Below, in pieces: positions 160 to 28,846 of a stretch of 33,452 nt of DNA. The notes under the pieces were generated by a model. The model searched no databases and was not told where the DNA came from. It saw nothing but the letters and a program-made list of their open reading frames with translations. Each line of letters opens with the position of its first letter. Within the stretch, counting starts at the first letter, position 1. Location of the stretch: NCBI GenBank assembly GCA_021779135.1, contig JAJYBH010000025.1:1-33452 (forward strand), given 5' to 3'. This DNA is from Deltaproteobacteria bacterium. GTDB taxonomy: Bacteria > Desulfobacterota > Desulfuromonadia > Geobacterales > Pseudopelobacteraceae. The position numbers and the translations under genes are program-made.

Positions 160-615
160 TCACTGCGACGAAAAGCCCATAAAGAACACAAAATAAGATA
201 TATTTGTTTGAGATATGCAACCAATATATAGGGTTTTTACACTTGATATTTGAGGTAATCCTAAACAAATGTAAAATGCGTCAAGTAATGACATTAATGC
301 TACAAGTATTGATAAATCACCTAATTTCATAAAAGACGGTAAGTTAACATTGTCAGGTAATACAAAGTATTGATCTATATTATCGTCAGTAATTTTAGAC
401 TTATGGATATCCTTGAAATATTTTCTAACCCCATTTACTGAGCGAGCATACAATGTACTATCTAATCTACTATTTAATACTATAAAAGATAATAGCATTC
501 CAATAATACCTACTAAAAGAAAATAGGTTGATATTATATTAGGTAAGTTATTGAAATTGAAGTCCAATAGTGGAGAAAAGCGGGACACCTCCCCATTTAT
601 CCAAAGTGCCGCCAT
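160..615 (-). CDS. Truncated AT-rich membrane protein of unknown function
   Basis: A 151-codon frame with hydrophobic stretches at residues about 28-47 (IISTYFLLVGIIGMLLSFIV), 100-120 and 138-148, so probably two to three membrane segments. Base composition is far more AT-rich than the neighbours, a sign of foreign origin. The first 15 residues (MAALWINGEVSRFS...) are encoded by the 46-bp direct repeat at 572-617, not by sequence that looks native to the gene. The original 5' end was therefore probably replaced or cut, and whether the frame is expressed is doubtful. It overlaps the 3' end of the Abi gene on the same strand. No family is recognised. Confidence 0.3.
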   Translation of the reverse strand: MAALWINGEVSRFSPLLDFNFNNLPNIISTYFLLVGIIGMLLSFIVLNSRLDSTLYARSVNGVRKYFKDIHKSKITDDNIDQYFVLPDNVNLPSFMKLGDLSILVALMSLLDAFYICLGLPQISSVKTLYIGCISQTNISYFVFFMGFSSQ

Positions 616-617
616 TC
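572..617. repeat. 46-bp direct repeat, copy A
   Basis: This segment (GGAGAAAAGCGGGACACC to GCCGCCATTC) matches the segment at 1711-1756 at roughly 80% identity without gaps, in the same orientation. Copy A contains the last codons and stop of the Abi gene and the first codons of the AT-rich membrane ORF. Together the copies bracket the Abi gene and its leader, as expected for a mobile cassette or a repeat that seeded recombination. Confidence 0.65.
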
Positions 618-1535
618 CCCTGCCGCAACAAGCCCCTGCCAGATCGGGCGCGCCTGCCAGTCATGGGGGACACCCATATCCTTTATCAACGCCGGATCAA
701 GCGTCTGCATCAAGCGCTGCAGACGCTGCGGCCAGTGGGTGGCCGGTTCTATAACCTGCATCAGATGAATAAGCAGCACCAGCGAGTTGTAGAGCTTGCG
801 TTCTCTGCCAACTCCATGCAGCGGATCGTTGCAGAAGTTATCCCAGAGATAGGCCGGTTTCTTGCGGGGCAGTTGGAAGGTTACGGCAAATTTGCGGTTC
901 CAGAGACGGCTATGGTGCGCGGCGGTATTGCGCAGTACACTGAGATGGTGAAAGAGGGAACAGAATGTTTTTTCGTCAAGTTGATAAGTGTTGGCTATGG
1001 TTTGACGGATGTGCGGCGAGACAAGCTGACTGACCAGATTTGATATGGTACCGAATGATGCTACTTCAACCGCTACCCAGACAGGAGGCCACGGCATATC
1101 GAGAGTTGTCTGATGATGGATGATAAAATCTTCCCGGCTGCGCTTCATTTCATCGTCCAGGTTGGTAATGGCGCGGGCATGAAGTAGCGGGTTCTTGAAG
1201 TGCCGGCTTTCAAGGTAGGCAAGCGGATCGAGCTGATGACCGACTACATACGCCCAACGGGAACGCACGGAAATCTCAACTCGCTTGCATGCCTCCAACA
1301 CCAGTTGGCGCAAGGCACGGTCGAAGCAGTACAGCTCCCATAGTTGCTGAAAGGTTATGCCAAGTTTGAATTGGTCGGGATTGCCTGAAACCGTGAAGGG
1401 GAACCGATAGGCGGATATACGGTAATAGTTGTGATGTTTCAGGCAGTGGATGGCGAATGGTTCGTCGGAAACAGCTAGACCACGACTTTTGAGAGTATCC
1501 AGTTGCTCCTGGTAGGTCTTGGCAGGCTTAGTCAT
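597..1535 (-). CDS. Abi_2 family abortive-infection protein (AbiD/AbiF-like)
   Basis: A 312-aa protein with the layout of the Abi_2 (PF07751; AbiD/AbiF) family. The N-terminus has 'YQEQLDTLKSRGLAVSDE' followed by an 'HxNYYRISAYRFPF' block (residues about 32-48). The C-terminal half carries RNTAAHHSRLWNR near residue 200, the RNxxxH-type motif that in HEPN-like folds forms an RNase active site. Members are linked to phage defence by abortive infection, probably through RNA damage after infection. The start ATG at 1535 has AGGTG six bases upstream. The gene has its own promoter and a structured leader (1536-1618), and its 3' end overlaps repeat copy A. RNase activity is inferred from the motif. 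Confidence 0.82.
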   Translation of the reverse strand: MTKPAKTYQEQLDTLKSRGLAVSDEPFAIHCLKHHNYYRISAYRFPFTVSGNPDQFKLGITFQQLWELYCFDRALRQLVLEACKRVEISVRSRWAYVVGHQLDPLAYLESRHFKNPLLHARAITNLDDEMKRSREDFIIHHQTTLDMPWPPVWVAVEVASFGTISNLVSQLVSPHIRQTIANTYQLDEKTFCSLFHHLSVLRNTAAHHSRLWNRKFAVTFQLPRKKPAYLWDNFCNDPLHGVGRERKLYNSLVLLIHLMQVIEPATHWPQRLQRLMQTLDPALIKDMGVPHDWQARPIWQGLVAAGEWRHFG

Positions 1536-1618
1536 ATTTCACCTGCGCTCCCTACACAAAGAACCAGAAACAAGAAACCCCCCTGGTGCGCATTGTTAAG
1601 AGGCGTGGGGGGTATTGT
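1536..1618 (-). ncRNA. Structured leader RNA of the Abi gene, candidate abiF-type RNA
   Basis: Between the predicted start point (about 1618) and the Abi start codon the minus strand forms a hairpin of 7 perfect pairs: ACCCCCC (plus 1577-1583) with GGGGGGT (1607-1613), with a 23-nt loop. A GCGC in the loop could pair with the GCGC just ahead of the AGGTG ribosome site, which would hide it. An 'abiF RNA motif' upstream of Abi_2 genes is known from comparative genomics. Position and compactness agree with that class, but the consensus cannot be checked from memory, so the class call is an inference. Confidence 0.45.
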
Positions 1619-1881: not shown

Positions 1882-2061
1882 TTATCCCTGTGTATCTCCT
1901 TCAGGCTCAGGATCCCGCTCTTTTTCGCATATCGGGCAGACGTAAAAAGACCGGCTGAGTTTCATGCCACAACAGGTCCACTCTCCAGAACTGGCGGGTT
2001 TCTCTAAGTCATCCCACGGATAAGGGTCTCGACTATAGTTGTGTCCGATTTTTTTTGACAT
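1882..2061 (-). CDS. 59-aa zinc-ribbon-like small protein coupled to the AbiEi gene
   Basis: The ATG at 2061 has AAGGAGAAC directly before it, so this start is chosen over upstream in-frame alternatives. The 59-aa product has a CC pair (residues 30-31) and a CPIC knuckle (42-45), a spacing compatible with a small zinc site, and an acidic tail. The start lies 29 bases inside the 3' end of the AbiEi-like gene, which points to translational coupling. This is the position where an AbiEii nucleotidyltransferase toxin is expected, but the protein is far too short and lacks nucleotidyltransferase motifs. Function unknown: possibly a toxin, an accessory factor or an unrelated passenger. Confidence 0.6.
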   Translation of the reverse strand: MSKKIGHNYSRDPYPWDDLEKPASSGEWTCCGMKLSRSFYVCPICEKERDPEPEGDTQG

Positions 2062-3109
2062 GTTCTCCTTGGTCGTCAGCAAATTCAATCTTCTCTGATA
2101 AGTTGATATGTTCGTCATATAGTATCCGTGCCGTTTCAATATTTCGCTGGTTTCCGGTGGCCATCAGGTCGGCATAAACCAGTATCGGGTGAACCGTATC
2201 CCCATGTGGAACAACTGTATCCGGTTGCCAGAAACGGTGGAGCAATTCCACATCACCTTCAGGGTCTTTCTTGAGCCGGTTCTGGATCAGCACGGCTTCC
2301 GGATTGTCCTTATCAACATAGACGGTTATTGTCTGAGGCTTTAGATAGTCGGTCAGCTTTCCTGCTGCAACCTCACCACCCCATTGTGCCTTTTCCGGAA
2401 CCAGCACAGCCTTTTGCCACCAGCCATCCGTACCTCGATAGCGCCCGATCAGCAATTTGGGGCGCAACTGCTCGGCATAACCGCTTATCCAGCGTTCCAG
2501 AAGCTTTTCTTTCCCTATCAAGCGAATATGTCGAGCACGACCTTTGCCGGTCTCCACCAGATAGCCTAGTTCGTTCAGCTCATTCAGGACCCAGTTCACC
2601 ATGCCCAAGGCGACATCTGTTTTGGCTGCAATGGCACGGTAGGTTTCATTCTCCAACCCCGGATTGCAAAGCAGGGCATAGAGTACCCGTAGCCCGGTTT
2701 GCTTAAAGGCACGGCCAACAGCAGGCGCTTTTACCACTCCCTGAGGCTTGTTGCCTTTGATGAATAGATACAGTGGCGGCTGATTGATGAAGCAGTTACC
2801 GGCTGTATCCATAAACTGGGTATCATCATCACGCAGCCGGTCAGCCATATCTGCCGTCACTTGCGGGATTATCATCACACAACGGGTCTGGTTTTTCAGC
2901 CGCCGATATAAGGCAAGCGCGGCATTAACTGCTATGGCACCGCCCTCGACAACCAGTAGTTCTAGCTTGACGGTTGCTTCCGGTGTTTTCAAGAGCAAGA
3001 ACTGCTTGCCTGGTGCTTTATTGTCAATATCGAGCACCAGCCCGGTCTGGCGCATAACAGCGCCGAGAGCAGTTTTTAGAATATGTTTTGGGTTGTTGGT
3101 TGCTGGCAT
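2033..3109 (-). CDS. AbiEi-like type IV antitoxin / transcriptional regulator
   Basis: 358 aa from ATG 3109, with an in-frame GTG at 3118 as alternative; neither has a strong ribosome site. The middle carries a winged-helix-like segment (residues about 140-205: 'TGLRVLYALLCNPGLENETY', then 'ALGMVNWVLNELNELGYL'), and the C-terminal part matches the large AbiEi-related proteins (COG4861 group). Such proteins bind DNA, repress their own promoter and neutralise an AbiEii nucleotidyltransferase. The promoter region shows a nested set of GTTCAC half-sites, as expected for self-repression. No AbiEii gene follows, only the small zinc-ribbon ORF. The family call rests on overall similarity and is fairly secure. 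Confidence 0.7.
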   Translation of the reverse strand: MPATNNPKHILKTALGAVMRQTGLVLDIDNKAPGKQFLLLKTPEATVKLELLVVEGGAIAVNAALALYRRLKNQTRCVMIIPQVTADMADRLRDDDTQFMDTAGNCFINQPPLYLFIKGNKPQGVVKAPAVGRAFKQTGLRVLYALLCNPGLENETYRAIAAKTDVALGMVNWVLNELNELGYLVETGKGRARHIRLIGKEKLLERWISGYAEQLRPKLLIGRYRGTDGWWQKAVLVPEKAQWGGEVAAGKLTDYLKPQTITVYVDKDNPEAVLIQNRLKKDPEGDVELLHRFWQPDTVVPHGDTVHPILVYADLMATGNQRNIETARILYDEHINLSEKIEFADDQGEHVKKNRTQL

Positions 3110-3112
3110 ATT

Positions 3113-3172
3113 GTTCACTTAATACTGCTGTTCATTTTTTGTGAACATATCATTTATGTGAACAAATATCAA
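3113..3172 (-). promoter_or_regulatory. AbiEi promoter with nested operator half-sites
   Basis: The minus strand has TTGATA (plus 3167-3172), a 17-bp spacer and TATGTT (plus 3144-3149). Four half-sites overlap it: GTTCAC 3113-3118, GTTCAT 3130-3135, GTGAAC 3141-3146 and GTGAAC 3158-3163. Outer and inner pairs share one centre near 3138, and same-side sites are 17 bp apart. This fits two dimers binding a symmetric operator. Confidence 0.6.
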
Positions 3173-18945: not shown

Positions 18946-19662
18946 TCACTCGCTTCCGACTGTAGGGATTTCGGCCTTTTCTATGGAAATAAGTTCCAGA
19001 TCGAAAATCAGGGTGCTGCCGGGAGGAATGCGGTTGTACGTGAGGTTTCCGTAGGCCAGGCGGGAGGGGATAACTATCTGCCACCTCGCTCCTGCCTTCA
19101 TCAGCGGCAACACTTCATCCAGGCCGCGGATTCCACCGCTGACAGGCATTAAGGCGGTCTCTCCACCGCGGCCGGAACTGTCGAACTCGGTCCCGTCAAT
19201 AAGTGTCCCGCGATAGTGAACCTTTACAATGTCGCTCTTTTTCGGGCTCGCCCCCATCCCTTCCCGCAACACCTTGTATTGGATACCATCCGCCAGTATT
19301 TTCACTCCGCTATTCTTTCCGTTTGCCGCCAGGAACTCACGTTCTTTTTTCTGGTTCGCGTTCGTTAATTCCCTGATGCGCCGGTCCTGGGCAATCATGC
19401 TCCTCCTTCGCAAATCCAGGAGCGTGCTTTTTATCTCGGCAAGGCTCATTTCAGGTTTATTGCCCGCAAGCGCATCGCGTAGTGCCCGGATGAGGGCCTC
19501 GACATCCAGGTCCAGCGACTGCCTCCTCAGGCTGTCCCCGTACTCGTAACCCATGCTGTAGCCGTCTCTTGTTTTCTGATCAGCAGGGAGAGGTCGATCA
19601 TCAGCCCTGCCGTTCCCGGAAACCATGCCCAAAACAAGGATTATCACTGTTATCTTCTTCAC
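18946..19662 (-). CDS. FKBP-type peptidyl-prolyl cis-trans isomerase, exported
   Basis: 238 aa from GTG 19662, chosen because GGGAGGGG sits just upstream and the signal peptide (KKITVIILVLGMVSGNGRA) then begins correctly. Residues about 30-125 are the helical FKBP_N dimerisation part ('GYSMGYEYGDSLRRQ', DLDVEALIRALRDALAG). Residues about 140-230 are the FKBP domain with VKVHYRGTLIDGTEFDSS, GLDEVLPLMKAGARWQIVIP, AYGN and IPPGSTLIFDLELI. This is the Mip/FkpA layout, a periplasmic or outer-membrane folding helper for Pro-containing exported proteins. It converges with the PP2C gene. The multicopper oxidase unit, which ends just upstream on the same strand, is set off by a terminator. Confidence 0.9.
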   Translation of the reverse strand: MKKITVIILVLGMVSGNGRADDRPLPADQKTRDGYSMGYEYGDSLRRQSLDLDVEALIRALRDALAGNKPEMSLAEIKSTLLDLRRRSMIAQDRRIRELTNANQKKEREFLAANGKNSGVKILADGIQYKVLREGMGASPKKSDIVKVHYRGTLIDGTEFDSSGRGGETALMPVSGGIRGLDEVLPLMKAGARWQIVIPSRLAYGNLTYNRIPPGSTLIFDLELISIEKAEIPTVGSE

Positions 19663-19749: not shown

Positions 19750-21984
19750 TTAATTTGTCACCTTGTACGGTCGCATCATCTCGTTGTCCTCATGGTCAAT
19801 GATGTGGCAGTGCCACACATAGCCCGGTCCCTTTGTCGGGTCAAAGGGATAGAGGTTTATTCCGGCAAGCGACTTGTTCGTAATCAGTGGTGTGCTGGTC
19901 GGGTTCCAGCGCACGACAATCCTCATGACCTGGCCGGGAAAAGCCTTGGCCGTGTCTTTCCAGCCGATCTCTTCCGGGGCAGGCGGGGCAGCCGCTCCGA
20001 TCAAAAACGGGCTGATAGCCGGGTTGCCACCAATGGCACCGTCAGCATTGGGTGTTTTATAGGGAAGCGGGGGTCCGTATCCCGGGCAGACTTGACCGTA
20101 CTGACAGCCGGTCGGCAAGGGTGCGGGGCCGGTACCGAAAGCCGCGGCCCATGTAGCGGCATATCCGCCGGGAATGTTTGATCCCATGGTGCCGTCGATG
20201 TCGAATGGCCGACGATCCAACACCTGGAATTGTGACAGATGTGTGTGCATCGGGTGGGCGTCCATGGTCAGGTTGATGATTTCCCACACCTCGATTGATC
20301 CCTTACGTGGGAGTTCGCTGATGCCATCTGCCGGAAATTGGTCAACTATGCTTGCTGACTTGAGTCCGTCCCACTTGGTGTTATTGACCAGCACCTCGAC
20401 GGGACCGCCAGGCCCCTGAACTTCCTTGAGGACAAGCTGCCTGATCTTATCGACCTTGACACCCGGAGCCAGGTTGCCTAACCCATCGGTAAGGCGGACA
20501 ACGTGAGACGGACGTCTGCACTGACCGGCAACAGCCGGGTTGCAGCTCATGTCGATCGGCATTACCGACGGATTACTGACCCTGAACTGCATGATATTGG
20601 CCATGGTCGGTTGATCGATACCCGGCACAAGTCCGGACGGGTAGGGAGTCGGTGCGTTGTTGGTGACGGTAATATTCTGTCCGGCCAGACCAGTGAAGTC
20701 TACTATGATGTCGGCTCGCTCACCGGGGGCGATAAACACCGAATTGACCTTTACGGGCGCATCAAGGTAGTTGTCATCAGATCCGATCTGGTAAACCGTG
20801 GCCGCTCCGAAGGAAAGGTTATAGAATCGGGCATTGGAACCGTCCAGAAGGCGCAGCCGGTAGCGCATCGGCTTCACATCCAGATACGGCCATGGCGCGC
20901 CGTTCACAATCGCCACATCGCCGATGAATTCAGGAATCCAGAAGGGGTGGATGTTAGGGTTTGGCACAGGGCCGTTCAGACAGGGGTCGTTTGGGGCGCC
21001 GCTGCCGCACAAGGGATCGCTGCCGTCAGGAAAATAGAGCTGGCCGGTGGTGTCAAACTGGCGATCCTGGATAGCCAACTCAATTTCATTCGGGCCTTTG
21101 GGCAGGTTCTTCGGTTCCTTGGCAGGGTCGCGGATAAAATAGAATGTGGCCAGGCCGCTGTAGACGTTTGTCCGGGTGGCCCCCAGAGCGTGGTCATGGA
21201 ACCAGAGCGTCCCCGGCTCCTGGAAGTTTGGATACAGGTACGCCGCCTTGCCGGGGCCGGTTCTGTAAAGTGAATTGTACGCGGAGCCGGTCTTTCCGTC
21301 AGGGGTAAACCATGCCTCAGGTCCGCCGTCAAACTGGGAAGGCACCTCGGCGCCGTGCAGATGGGGTACGGCTGGGACCGAATTCTGGTACGGCTTGCAG
21401 CACGGATCGCCGGGAGTCTGCGTACAGTCAACCGCCGGCATGCGCATCATGCACATCAGGTTCTCAGGGTCGGCCCAATGGATCGTCTGATCCGCGGTCA
21501 CAAGTCCCTGGACGAGCCCGGTGGTTGCCTGACCGTTGATGTAGATCGGGTCGCCGAACTTGGGCAGCTGGTTTTCATAATTAACCAGCGTCGGGATAAA
21601 TCGCCGGGTCTCAACCGTCACCGCAGGCCAATTGGCGGGACCAAGAACCTTTTTTGTCAGGCTGTCCGATGTTTCGTATGCCCACACTCTTGTCTTGCCG
21701 AAGGTAACGTCTTGGCCGATATCCGGACAAGCGAAAGTGCCCTGCGGCAGCACCTGCTGATCGACCTCTTTCATTTTGACAGTCAGTAACGGATGCCGGA
21801 GCGCATCCACCCTGGGAATCGGCCCTGCCGGACCAAAGACCGGCGCAGGCACGGCAAATTGCGGGATGCATGCGCCCGGGACCGCCACCTGGTTGGGCAC
21901 GAGGGTGCTTGCGCCGACAAACCCTGACCACAGGAGTCCCAAAAATGGTCCGGCGCCTTTTATTAATCCTGATCTTGTAATCAT
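19750..21984 (-). CDS. Exported multicopper oxidase
   Basis: 744 aa from ATG 21984 (AAGGAGG nine bases upstream). A signal sequence covers residues about 1-25. All four copper motifs are present: HLH (208-210), HDH (263-265), HPMHTH (577-582) and the C-terminal HCHIIDHEDNEMM, where C726, H731 and M736 bind the type-1 copper and the HCH histidines help bind the trinuclear site. The large cupredoxin architecture resembles the CotA/bilirubin-oxidase and Geobacter OmpB-like groups, which oxidise metals or phenolics or take part in Fe(III)/Mn metabolism. A Cys-rich insert lies near 178-196. It is in a unit led by a GEMM riboswitch, so it is probably controlled by a cyclic dinucleotide. The substrate is not known. 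Confidence 0.92.
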   Translation of the reverse strand: MITRSGLIKGAGPFLGLLWSGFVGASTLVPNQVAVPGACIPQFAVPAPVFGPAGPIPRVDALRHPLLTVKMKEVDQQVLPQGTFACPDIGQDVTFGKTRVWAYETSDSLTKKVLGPANWPAVTVETRRFIPTLVNYENQLPKFGDPIYINGQATTGLVQGLVTADQTIHWADPENLMCMMRMPAVDCTQTPGDPCCKPYQNSVPAVPHLHGAEVPSQFDGGPEAWFTPDGKTGSAYNSLYRTGPGKAAYLYPNFQEPGTLWFHDHALGATRTNVYSGLATFYFIRDPAKEPKNLPKGPNEIELAIQDRQFDTTGQLYFPDGSDPLCGSGAPNDPCLNGPVPNPNIHPFWIPEFIGDVAIVNGAPWPYLDVKPMRYRLRLLDGSNARFYNLSFGAATVYQIGSDDNYLDAPVKVNSVFIAPGERADIIVDFTGLAGQNITVTNNAPTPYPSGLVPGIDQPTMANIMQFRVSNPSVMPIDMSCNPAVAGQCRRPSHVVRLTDGLGNLAPGVKVDKIRQLVLKEVQGPGGPVEVLVNNTKWDGLKSASIVDQFPADGISELPRKGSIEVWEIINLTMDAHPMHTHLSQFQVLDRRPFDIDGTMGSNIPGGYAATWAAAFGTGPAPLPTGCQYGQVCPGYGPPLPYKTPNADGAIGGNPAISPFLIGAAAPPAPEEIGWKDTAKAFPGQVMRIVVRWNPTSTPLITNKSLAGINLYPFDPTKGPGYVWHCHIIDHEDNEMMRPYKVTN

Positions 21985-22181: not shown

Positions 22182-22544
22182 TTAATGCTGATTTCCTTCG
22201 ATTTGTTTTTTTAATTCAGCTAGTTGTTTCTTCAGATCCAATAGCTGTCTATGTTGCTTTAATTGCTGCCAGCCTTCGATTTCCTTAATCGCGGCCATCT
22301 GCTGCATAACCGCGCCCGTTTGCCCCAGAATCGTCATCACCAGTTGCTGCTGCCCTGCCGATATCTTCTTGTGGTTGATCAGTGCGTATATATCCGCCGT
22401 TATCCCGGATACCATGCCCAGGTTGTTAACCAACCCTTGATTAATTGTCACGGTTCGGGCCGGGACATCTTGCATCTGAGCCGGTACACAAACAGCCGTC
22501 ATGATACAAGCCGTAATTATTGCGTACATTGCTGCCCGTCGCAT
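22182..22544 (-). CDS. Small exported coiled-coil protein upstream of the oxidase
   Basis: 120 aa from ATG 22544 with GGGAG upstream. A signal peptide (RRAAMYAIITACIMTAVCVP) is followed by a mature part that is helical and Gln-rich, ending in a Lys/Leu/Glu coiled coil (QLLDLKKQLAELKKQIEG). No Cys in the mature part, no known domain. It is the first gene after the GEMM riboswitch and precedes the oxidase by 197 bp on the same strand, so it may assist or anchor the oxidase. The 197-bp gap holds no ORF. Confidence 0.65.
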   Translation of the reverse strand: MRRAAMYAIITACIMTAVCVPAQMQDVPARTVTINQGLVNNLGMVSGITADIYALINHKKISAGQQQLVMTILGQTGAVMQQMAAIKEIEGWQQLKQHRQLLDLKKQLAELKKQIEGNQH

Positions 22545-22616: not shown

Positions 22617-22730
22617 AACAAAAAAAAACCGTGCTGCGCAAAGAATACATCCTTCGGCAACCCGGCTATCTCTATCGTGAGACCCGCAGCATTCCGCCCC
22701 CTTCTCGCAAAGGGTTTGGCTTTATCGATG
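22617..22730 (-). promoter_or_regulatory. GEMM-I (cyclic dinucleotide) riboswitch with terminator
   Basis: The minus-strand leader has the GEMM landmarks: CAAACC, then a CCCTTT-GCGA-GAAGGG hairpin with a GNRA tetraloop, then GCTGCGGGTCTC, then ATAGCCGGGTTGCCG as tetraloop receptor. CATC and GATG at the ends (plus 22727-22730 and 22648-22651) close P1. A TGCTGCG inside the aptamer (plus 22685-22691) can instead pair with CGCAGCA (plus 22632-22638) just before a nine-T run (plus 22620-22628), forming a terminator. Ligand binding should hold the first strand and allow read-through. Class GEMM-I is strong; whether the ligand is c-di-GMP or 3',3'-cGAMP is open. Confidence 0.85.
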
Positions 22731-22756
22731 CTTTATTGGTTTTTTGTAATAATGTG

Positions 22757-22784
22757 AGTGTATCATATCAATCTTACCTGTCAA
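22757..22784 (-). promoter_or_regulatory. Sigma70-type promoter of the GEMM-led unit
   Basis: The minus strand has a consensus TTGACA (plus 22779-22784), a 16-bp spacer and TACACT (plus 22757-22762). The predicted start, near 22750, lies about 20 bases before the aptamer. The rest of the gap up to 22958 shows nothing else recognisable. Confidence 0.6.
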
Positions 22785-28696: not shown

Positions 28697-28711
28697 CTGT
28701 GCCTGGCACAG
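28697..28711. repeat. 15-bp palindrome in the AOR leader
   Basis: CTGTGCC-T-GGCACAG lies between the riboswitch and the AOR start codon and could form a small hairpin (CTGTG stem, 5-nt loop) just before the ribosome site. It may take part in the expression switch. Confidence 0.5.
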
Positions 28712-28719
28712 TGAAATTC

Positions 28720-28810
28720 TCCTTTTCAAAGGAAGGCTGCACCGTTTCCCGTGCAACCCAATGGCCTGATGCCGTTGGAGGGTCCCTGTAGGCGGTTAGG
28801 CTCGGAGTAA
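28720..28810 (-). promoter_or_regulatory. Probable Moco/Tuco riboswitch in the AOR leader
   Basis: The minus-strand leader reads CTCCGAGCC, then GGGACCCTCCAAC, then GGTTGCAC, a GGGAAAC loop and GTGCAGCC, then CTTCC. The GGTTGCAC/GTGCAGCC stem has 8 pairs including one G-U. I recall this order of blocks for Moco-motif RNAs; the tungsten-linked subset (Tuco) is known to lack one arm. The RNA starts almost at the predicted transcription start. A CCTTT and AAAAGG pair behind it (plus 28724-28737) includes a decoy AAGGAG, so control could be at ribosome access. The class was recalled from memory and not model-checked. Confidence 0.62.
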
Positions 28811-28816
28811 AATGTT

Positions 28817-28846
28817 ATTATACTACAGTTGAAGACTTTGCGCCAA
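28817..28846 (-). promoter_or_regulatory. AOR operon promoter
   Basis: The minus strand shows a perfect TATAAT (plus 28817-28822), an 18-bp spacer and TTGGCG (plus 28841-28846). Start near 28810 leaves a leader of about 135 nt, filled by the riboswitch. Confidence 0.7.

Follow-up and report, generated by a model that had tools for sequence, protein, structure and literature searches.

A GEMM-I riboswitch precedes a probable operon for an exported multicopper oxidase in a Geobacter-like bacterium, and similar elements precede such genes in its relatives

What does a GEMM-I riboswitch control, and through which messenger, when it lies ahead of a gene for an exported copper oxidase? In Geobacter, GEMM-I switches are well known ahead of cytochrome, pilus and transpeptidase genes (PMC6456294). 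The literature that we searched returned only incidental matches for a riboswitch before a multicopper oxidase (MCO), though an example may already be contained in a supplementary table. Such an arrangement occurs in the stretch of DNA analysed here (the window; 33,452 nucleotides). This 33-kb contig (G000:C35) belongs to a draft genome, 3.43 Mb in size and 98% complete, whose nearest named relatives are Geobacter-like Desulfuromonadia. We propose, with a probability of roughly 0.8, that the window encodes a transcriptional GEMM-I ON riboswitch that most likely senses cyclic di-GMP (c-di-GMP) and drives an operon for a small protein, an MCO and an FKBP isomerase. The aptamer with its pocket residues, a terminator that excludes it, the gene order and recurrence in relatives are all found in the analysis, and the features of the locus are these:

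22757..22784, minus strand: sigma-70-type promoter, by consensus match only (TTGACA 22784-22779, 16-nt spacer, TACACT 22762-22757)
22652..22730, minus strand: GEMM-I (c-di-GMP-I) aptamer, from Rfam, pocket residues and covariation in a 25-member set; by alignment, G20 = 22720, C21 = 22719 pairing with G46 = 22694, A47 = 22693 and C92 = 22657
22620..22667, minus strand: intrinsic terminator, from folding (hairpin 22667-22627, nine T 22628-22620)
22182..22544, minus strand: orphan exported protein of 120 aa with a signal sequence and a predicted three-helix bundle behind it (open reading frame, ribosome-binding site, structure model)
19750..21984, minus strand: exported CotA-like MCO of 744 aa with four copper-ligand motifs (domain and motif search)
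18946..19662, minus strand: exported FKBP-type peptidyl-prolyl isomerase, GTG start assumed (domain search; adjoins the MCO gene in loci L048 and L049 too)

As a riboswitch, the window RNA is unremarkable: it is well formed and belongs to a known class. The TTGACA promoter that an earlier note had claimed is found on the minus strand (TTGACA-16-TACACT), with TG preceding the −10 element and 10 of 12 consensus matches; one promoter-type site was seen against 0.6 expected in shuffled sequence. The GEMM-I aptamer with a GNRA loop and receptor, for which the note had proposed a covariance search as a check, is borne out by that search: the RNA scores 56.0 bits against RF01051 (cut-off 35; E = 3.7e-10 in a whole-genome search), its P2 loop is GCGA (22708-22705), the P3 receptor side is conserved, and G20, A47 and C92 are all present. 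A20 marks the cGAMP subclass GEMM-Ib, and the window RNA, with G20 at 22720, falls outside it. The c-di-GMP-I-GGC model RF03167 matches 22729-22652 with a marginal 59.9 bits (curated cut-off 59; E = 6.4e-12 in a search over the window); because its consensus has C-G at pocket positions 46-47, where the window has G-A, we dropped this label.

The nine-T terminator, one strand of which the note had placed within the aptamer, is likewise present. Its 5′ arm (AGCCGG, GTTGC, CGAAGGA) consists of the 3′ part of the aptamer and 3 nt beyond, and the stem recruits the 3′ strands of P3 and P1 together with the ligand-pairing C92. The leader is most stable when folded into this terminator, which is built from the aptamer 3′ strand and the spacer and is mutually exclusive with the aptamer. 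The leader folding energy is −40.2 kcal/mol (z = −1.99), and the aptamer-constrained fold reaches −19.7 kcal/mol without ligand against a free optimum of −36.8. For the anti-aptamer duplex of the window RNA alone, 141 of 2000 shuffled spacers were equally good, a modest gain only; for the eight other MCO-linked elements the number ranged from 0 to 112 of 2000. In the pilM riboswitch of Geobacter metallireducens, ligand blocks a terminator that captures the ligand-pairing C75, making an ON switch (PMC9262584). As the window terminator excludes the ligand-bound aptamer and takes C92 into its 5′ arm in the same layout, ON switching is likely here by analogy. The proposal as a whole is also supported by the orthologous element of a same-genus genome (G002), which lies directly before an MCO gene and likewise carries G20.

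We suggest that transcription would start about 20 nt 5′ of the aptamer. Without ligand, the aptamer 3′ strand, including C92, would pair with the spacer to form the terminator before nine U, and transcription would stop; ligand held in the G20/A47/C92 pocket would keep that strand in P3 and P1, no terminator would form, and the operon for the small exported protein, the CotA-like MCO and the FKBP isomerase would be transcribed. High c-di-GMP, in a surface or biofilm state, would thereby turn the exported copper oxidase on. Four parts of this scheme are inferred: which ligand binds, which way the control runs, that the genes are transcribed together, and what the oxidase does, which may be electron transfer, metal oxidation or phenol oxidation.

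The gene order fits the note's further suggestion, of a riboswitch ahead of genes for a small periplasmic protein and an exported MCO, as far as sequence can tell, and the link to the MCO recurs in relatives. The operon probably also includes the FKBP isomerase gene, conserved beside the MCO gene in two relatives, and the small protein appears to be an orphan: no relatives were found in Pfam, NCBIfam, plasmids or 140 other genomes of the order, and its single-sequence model, a three-helix bundle with a mean pLDDT of 74.5, gave no significant match in the PDB, the top hits being designed bundles. We therefore propose no function for it. The MCO scores above the cut-offs of PF07731 and PF00394 and carries the expected copper-ligand motifs (HLH 209, HDH 264, HPMHTH around 581 and HCHIIDHEDNEMM 726), identifying it as a multicopper oxidase; CotA laccases are its closest solved relatives (E = 8e-80). 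Good ribosome-binding sites precede the small-protein and MCO genes, and the gaps of about 195 nt between these two and 87 nt between the MCO and FKBP genes leave space for extra promoters. The same genome encodes a second MCO (L043, G000:C10), 55% identical to the first; its 13-kb neighbourhood contains no GEMM-I, which makes different regulation of the two copies probable.

The window also holds an abiF RNA (RF03085, 48.3 bits; 1577-1612, minus strand) directly 5′ of an Abi_2 (AbiF-type) gene (600-1535, minus strand), which an AbiEi_2 gene (2036-3118) adjoins. Farther along is a Moco (molybdenum/tungsten) riboswitch (28703-28819, minus strand; 61.5 bits). Its model end and the listed start of an aldehyde ferredoxin oxidoreductase gene overlap, and genes for an ABC transporter permease and an ATPase with TOBE domains follow farther downstream.

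Beyond the window, MCO neighbourhoods (85 belonging to the family, 79 to named genomes) were scanned with a covariance model (R1) built from 25 family members, which show clear covariation. GEMM-I is linked to an MCO at nine loci in Desulfuromonadia, and eight of these carry G20. In G002 (L048), a genome of the same genus, the riboswitch lies 253 nt 5′ of the MCO gene, followed by the FKBP gene, and the small-protein gene is absent; in Geobacter sp. clean984 (L049) it precedes genes for a subtilisin-like protease, the MCO, the FKBP isomerase and a multiheme cytochrome. GEMM-I stands directly before the MCO gene in Desulfuromonadales GWC2_61_20 (L104), in Geobacteraceae GL140_3 (L064; an A20 element that scores only 32 bits and lacks a clear U tract) and in G084 (L340, the only further locus from a second covariance model, R2). 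It also precedes a 1473-aa MCO with an fn3 domain (L176, G055), genes for a CxxCH surface protein, a PEP-CTERM protein and an MCO (L177, G051), and a large MCO reading with a frameshift (L205, G058). Three loci with GEMM-I near an MCO gene but on the opposite strand (L179, L180, L200) were left out of the count. In L048 the stretch 1103-2688 has the two switch types side by side: ahead of the G20 element that precedes the MCO gene, and close to it, lies an A20 (cGAMP-type) GEMM-I followed by a gene for a DUF4382 lipoprotein.

The family as a whole has 734 GEMM-I matches in 76 genomes (273.7 Mb). Assuming uniform GEMM-I placement, and with some loci ending at contig ends, same-strand elements within 1 kb upstream of the 85 family MCO loci number 4 against 0.11 expected (P = 6e-6), and within 4 kb upstream 5 against 0.46 (P = 1e-4). 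Part of this excess may reflect a general preference, because GEMM-I RNAs often precede genes for exported proteins. G20/C21 elements before genes for proteins with a twin-arginine-like start were seen in three genomes (L294, L307, L309); at the place of L294, the product (L174) has by eye the look of a metallo-beta-lactamase fold. A quick tree of 121 MCOs requires nine changes in the GEMM-I trait, gains not being separable from losses, and eight of these are forced by well-supported branches; the window, L048 and L049 elements may share one origin. By subtype, 7 of 65 G20/C21 elements had an MCO target against 0 of 38 A20 elements (Fisher P = 0.045), 6 of those 7 being training members of the model; with training members removed the counts became 1 of 57 and 0 of 38 (P = 1). 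We therefore dropped a subtype preference, which that sample does not establish because six of the seven MCO-linked elements had trained the model that fetched them. Somewhat short of an even bet, and put forward tentatively, is the broader idea that across Desulfuromonadia G20/C21-G46 c-di-GMP riboswitches have been recruited repeatedly to exported MCOs of different lineages, forming a c-di-GMP-ON copper-oxidase regulon beside the known cGAMP cytochrome regulon.

The host genome has nine GEMM-I RNAs, five with A20 (L001, L006, L007 and the tandem L008/L009) and four with G20 (the window element, L002, L004 and L005). Judged from its G20/A47/C92 pocket, the window element likelier prefers c-di-GMP over 3′,3′-cGAMP. 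Position 20 is a selectivity factor rather than a hard filter (PMC9262584), and a GEMM-I ON switch whose main cellular ligand is cGAMP, or which answers to both messengers, is an unlikely alternative. The five A20 elements make cGAMP signalling probable in this bacterium, the C21-G46 pair is common to the window RNA and those elements, and one riboswitch of G. sulfurreducens responds to both messengers (PMC6456294). Against this, G20 occupies the selectivity position here as in the orthologous G002 element and L049, and among the GGDEF proteins found in the host genome the Hypr position is Ser in none and Thr in one. The latter, a membrane protein (L141, G000:C91), reads GHLAGT, with its Thr at the position of Asp in diguanylate cyclases and of Ser in the cGAMP synthase GacA, and may be a candidate for altered nucleotide choice.

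The 195-nt gap and the small gene's place as first gene would also suit a riboswitch that controls the orphan protein alone, with the MCO and FKBP genes as a separate transcription unit. We consider this quite improbable, since in G002, L104, L064, L176, L205 and L340 the small gene is missing and the riboswitch directly precedes the MCO gene. That the RNA is a degenerate GEMM-I remnant without regulation, the MCO operon being driven from elsewhere, seems very improbable indeed: the bare passing of the RF03167 cut-off and a U-U mismatch at the base of P3 point that way, but the RF01051 score is 21 bits above its cut-off, every pocket residue is intact, promoter and terminator are correctly placed, and the orthologous element of the sister genome retains both pocket and terminator. 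A c-di-GMP-sensing ON switch for the whole operon is the reading that we carry forward.

If it is true, c-di-GMP would acquire, through G20 ON switches ahead of exported copper oxidases, a direct and testable enzyme output at the cell surface. In G. sulfurreducens the two messengers have opposing roles, cGAMP promoting iron oxide particle respiration through A20 riboswitches and c-di-GMP promoting electrode biofilms (PMC6456294). Insoluble Fe(III) reduction requires two multicopper proteins (PMC3495685), so the riboswitch–MCO link offers a concrete route to asking what these oxidases do in anaerobes. In Pseudomonas, c-di-GMP is tied to Mn(II) oxidation, and the part of that source considered here reports no riboswitch at the oxidase genes (PMC9765421). 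The recurrent GEMM-I–MCO link appears unreported in the literature searched, and the target class, which recurs, seems new.

Compared with the c-di-GMP-I riboswitch (GEMM-I, RF01051), the window RNA has the same fold, GNRA loop and receptor and G20/A47/C92 pocket, but its 21-46 pair is C-G, as in the A20 elements of its own genome, rather than the commoner G-C, and its target is an MCO operon. With the GEMM-Ib switches of pilM (G. metallireducens) and GSU1761 (G. sulfurreducens) it shares the aptamer and an ON-type terminator that takes the ligand-pairing C, whereas it has G20 instead of A20, c-di-GMP is the expected ligand, and the target is neither a cytochrome nor a pilus gene. Among Rfam models, RF03167 scores highest on the three nearest MCO-linked elements, yet these RNAs have G-A where its consensus has C-G at 46-47. 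The window MCO is homologous to the CotA laccases over the three-domain core, with all four copper-ligand motifs, but is about 230 residues longer, exported and from an anaerobe-type bacterium. The 1473-aa GEMM-linked MCO with an fn3 domain (L176) resembles the OmpB/OmpC type; like OmpB and OmpC of G. sulfurreducens, the window MCO is an exported multicopper protein, although it is half the size of the L176 protein and belongs to another branch of the tree.
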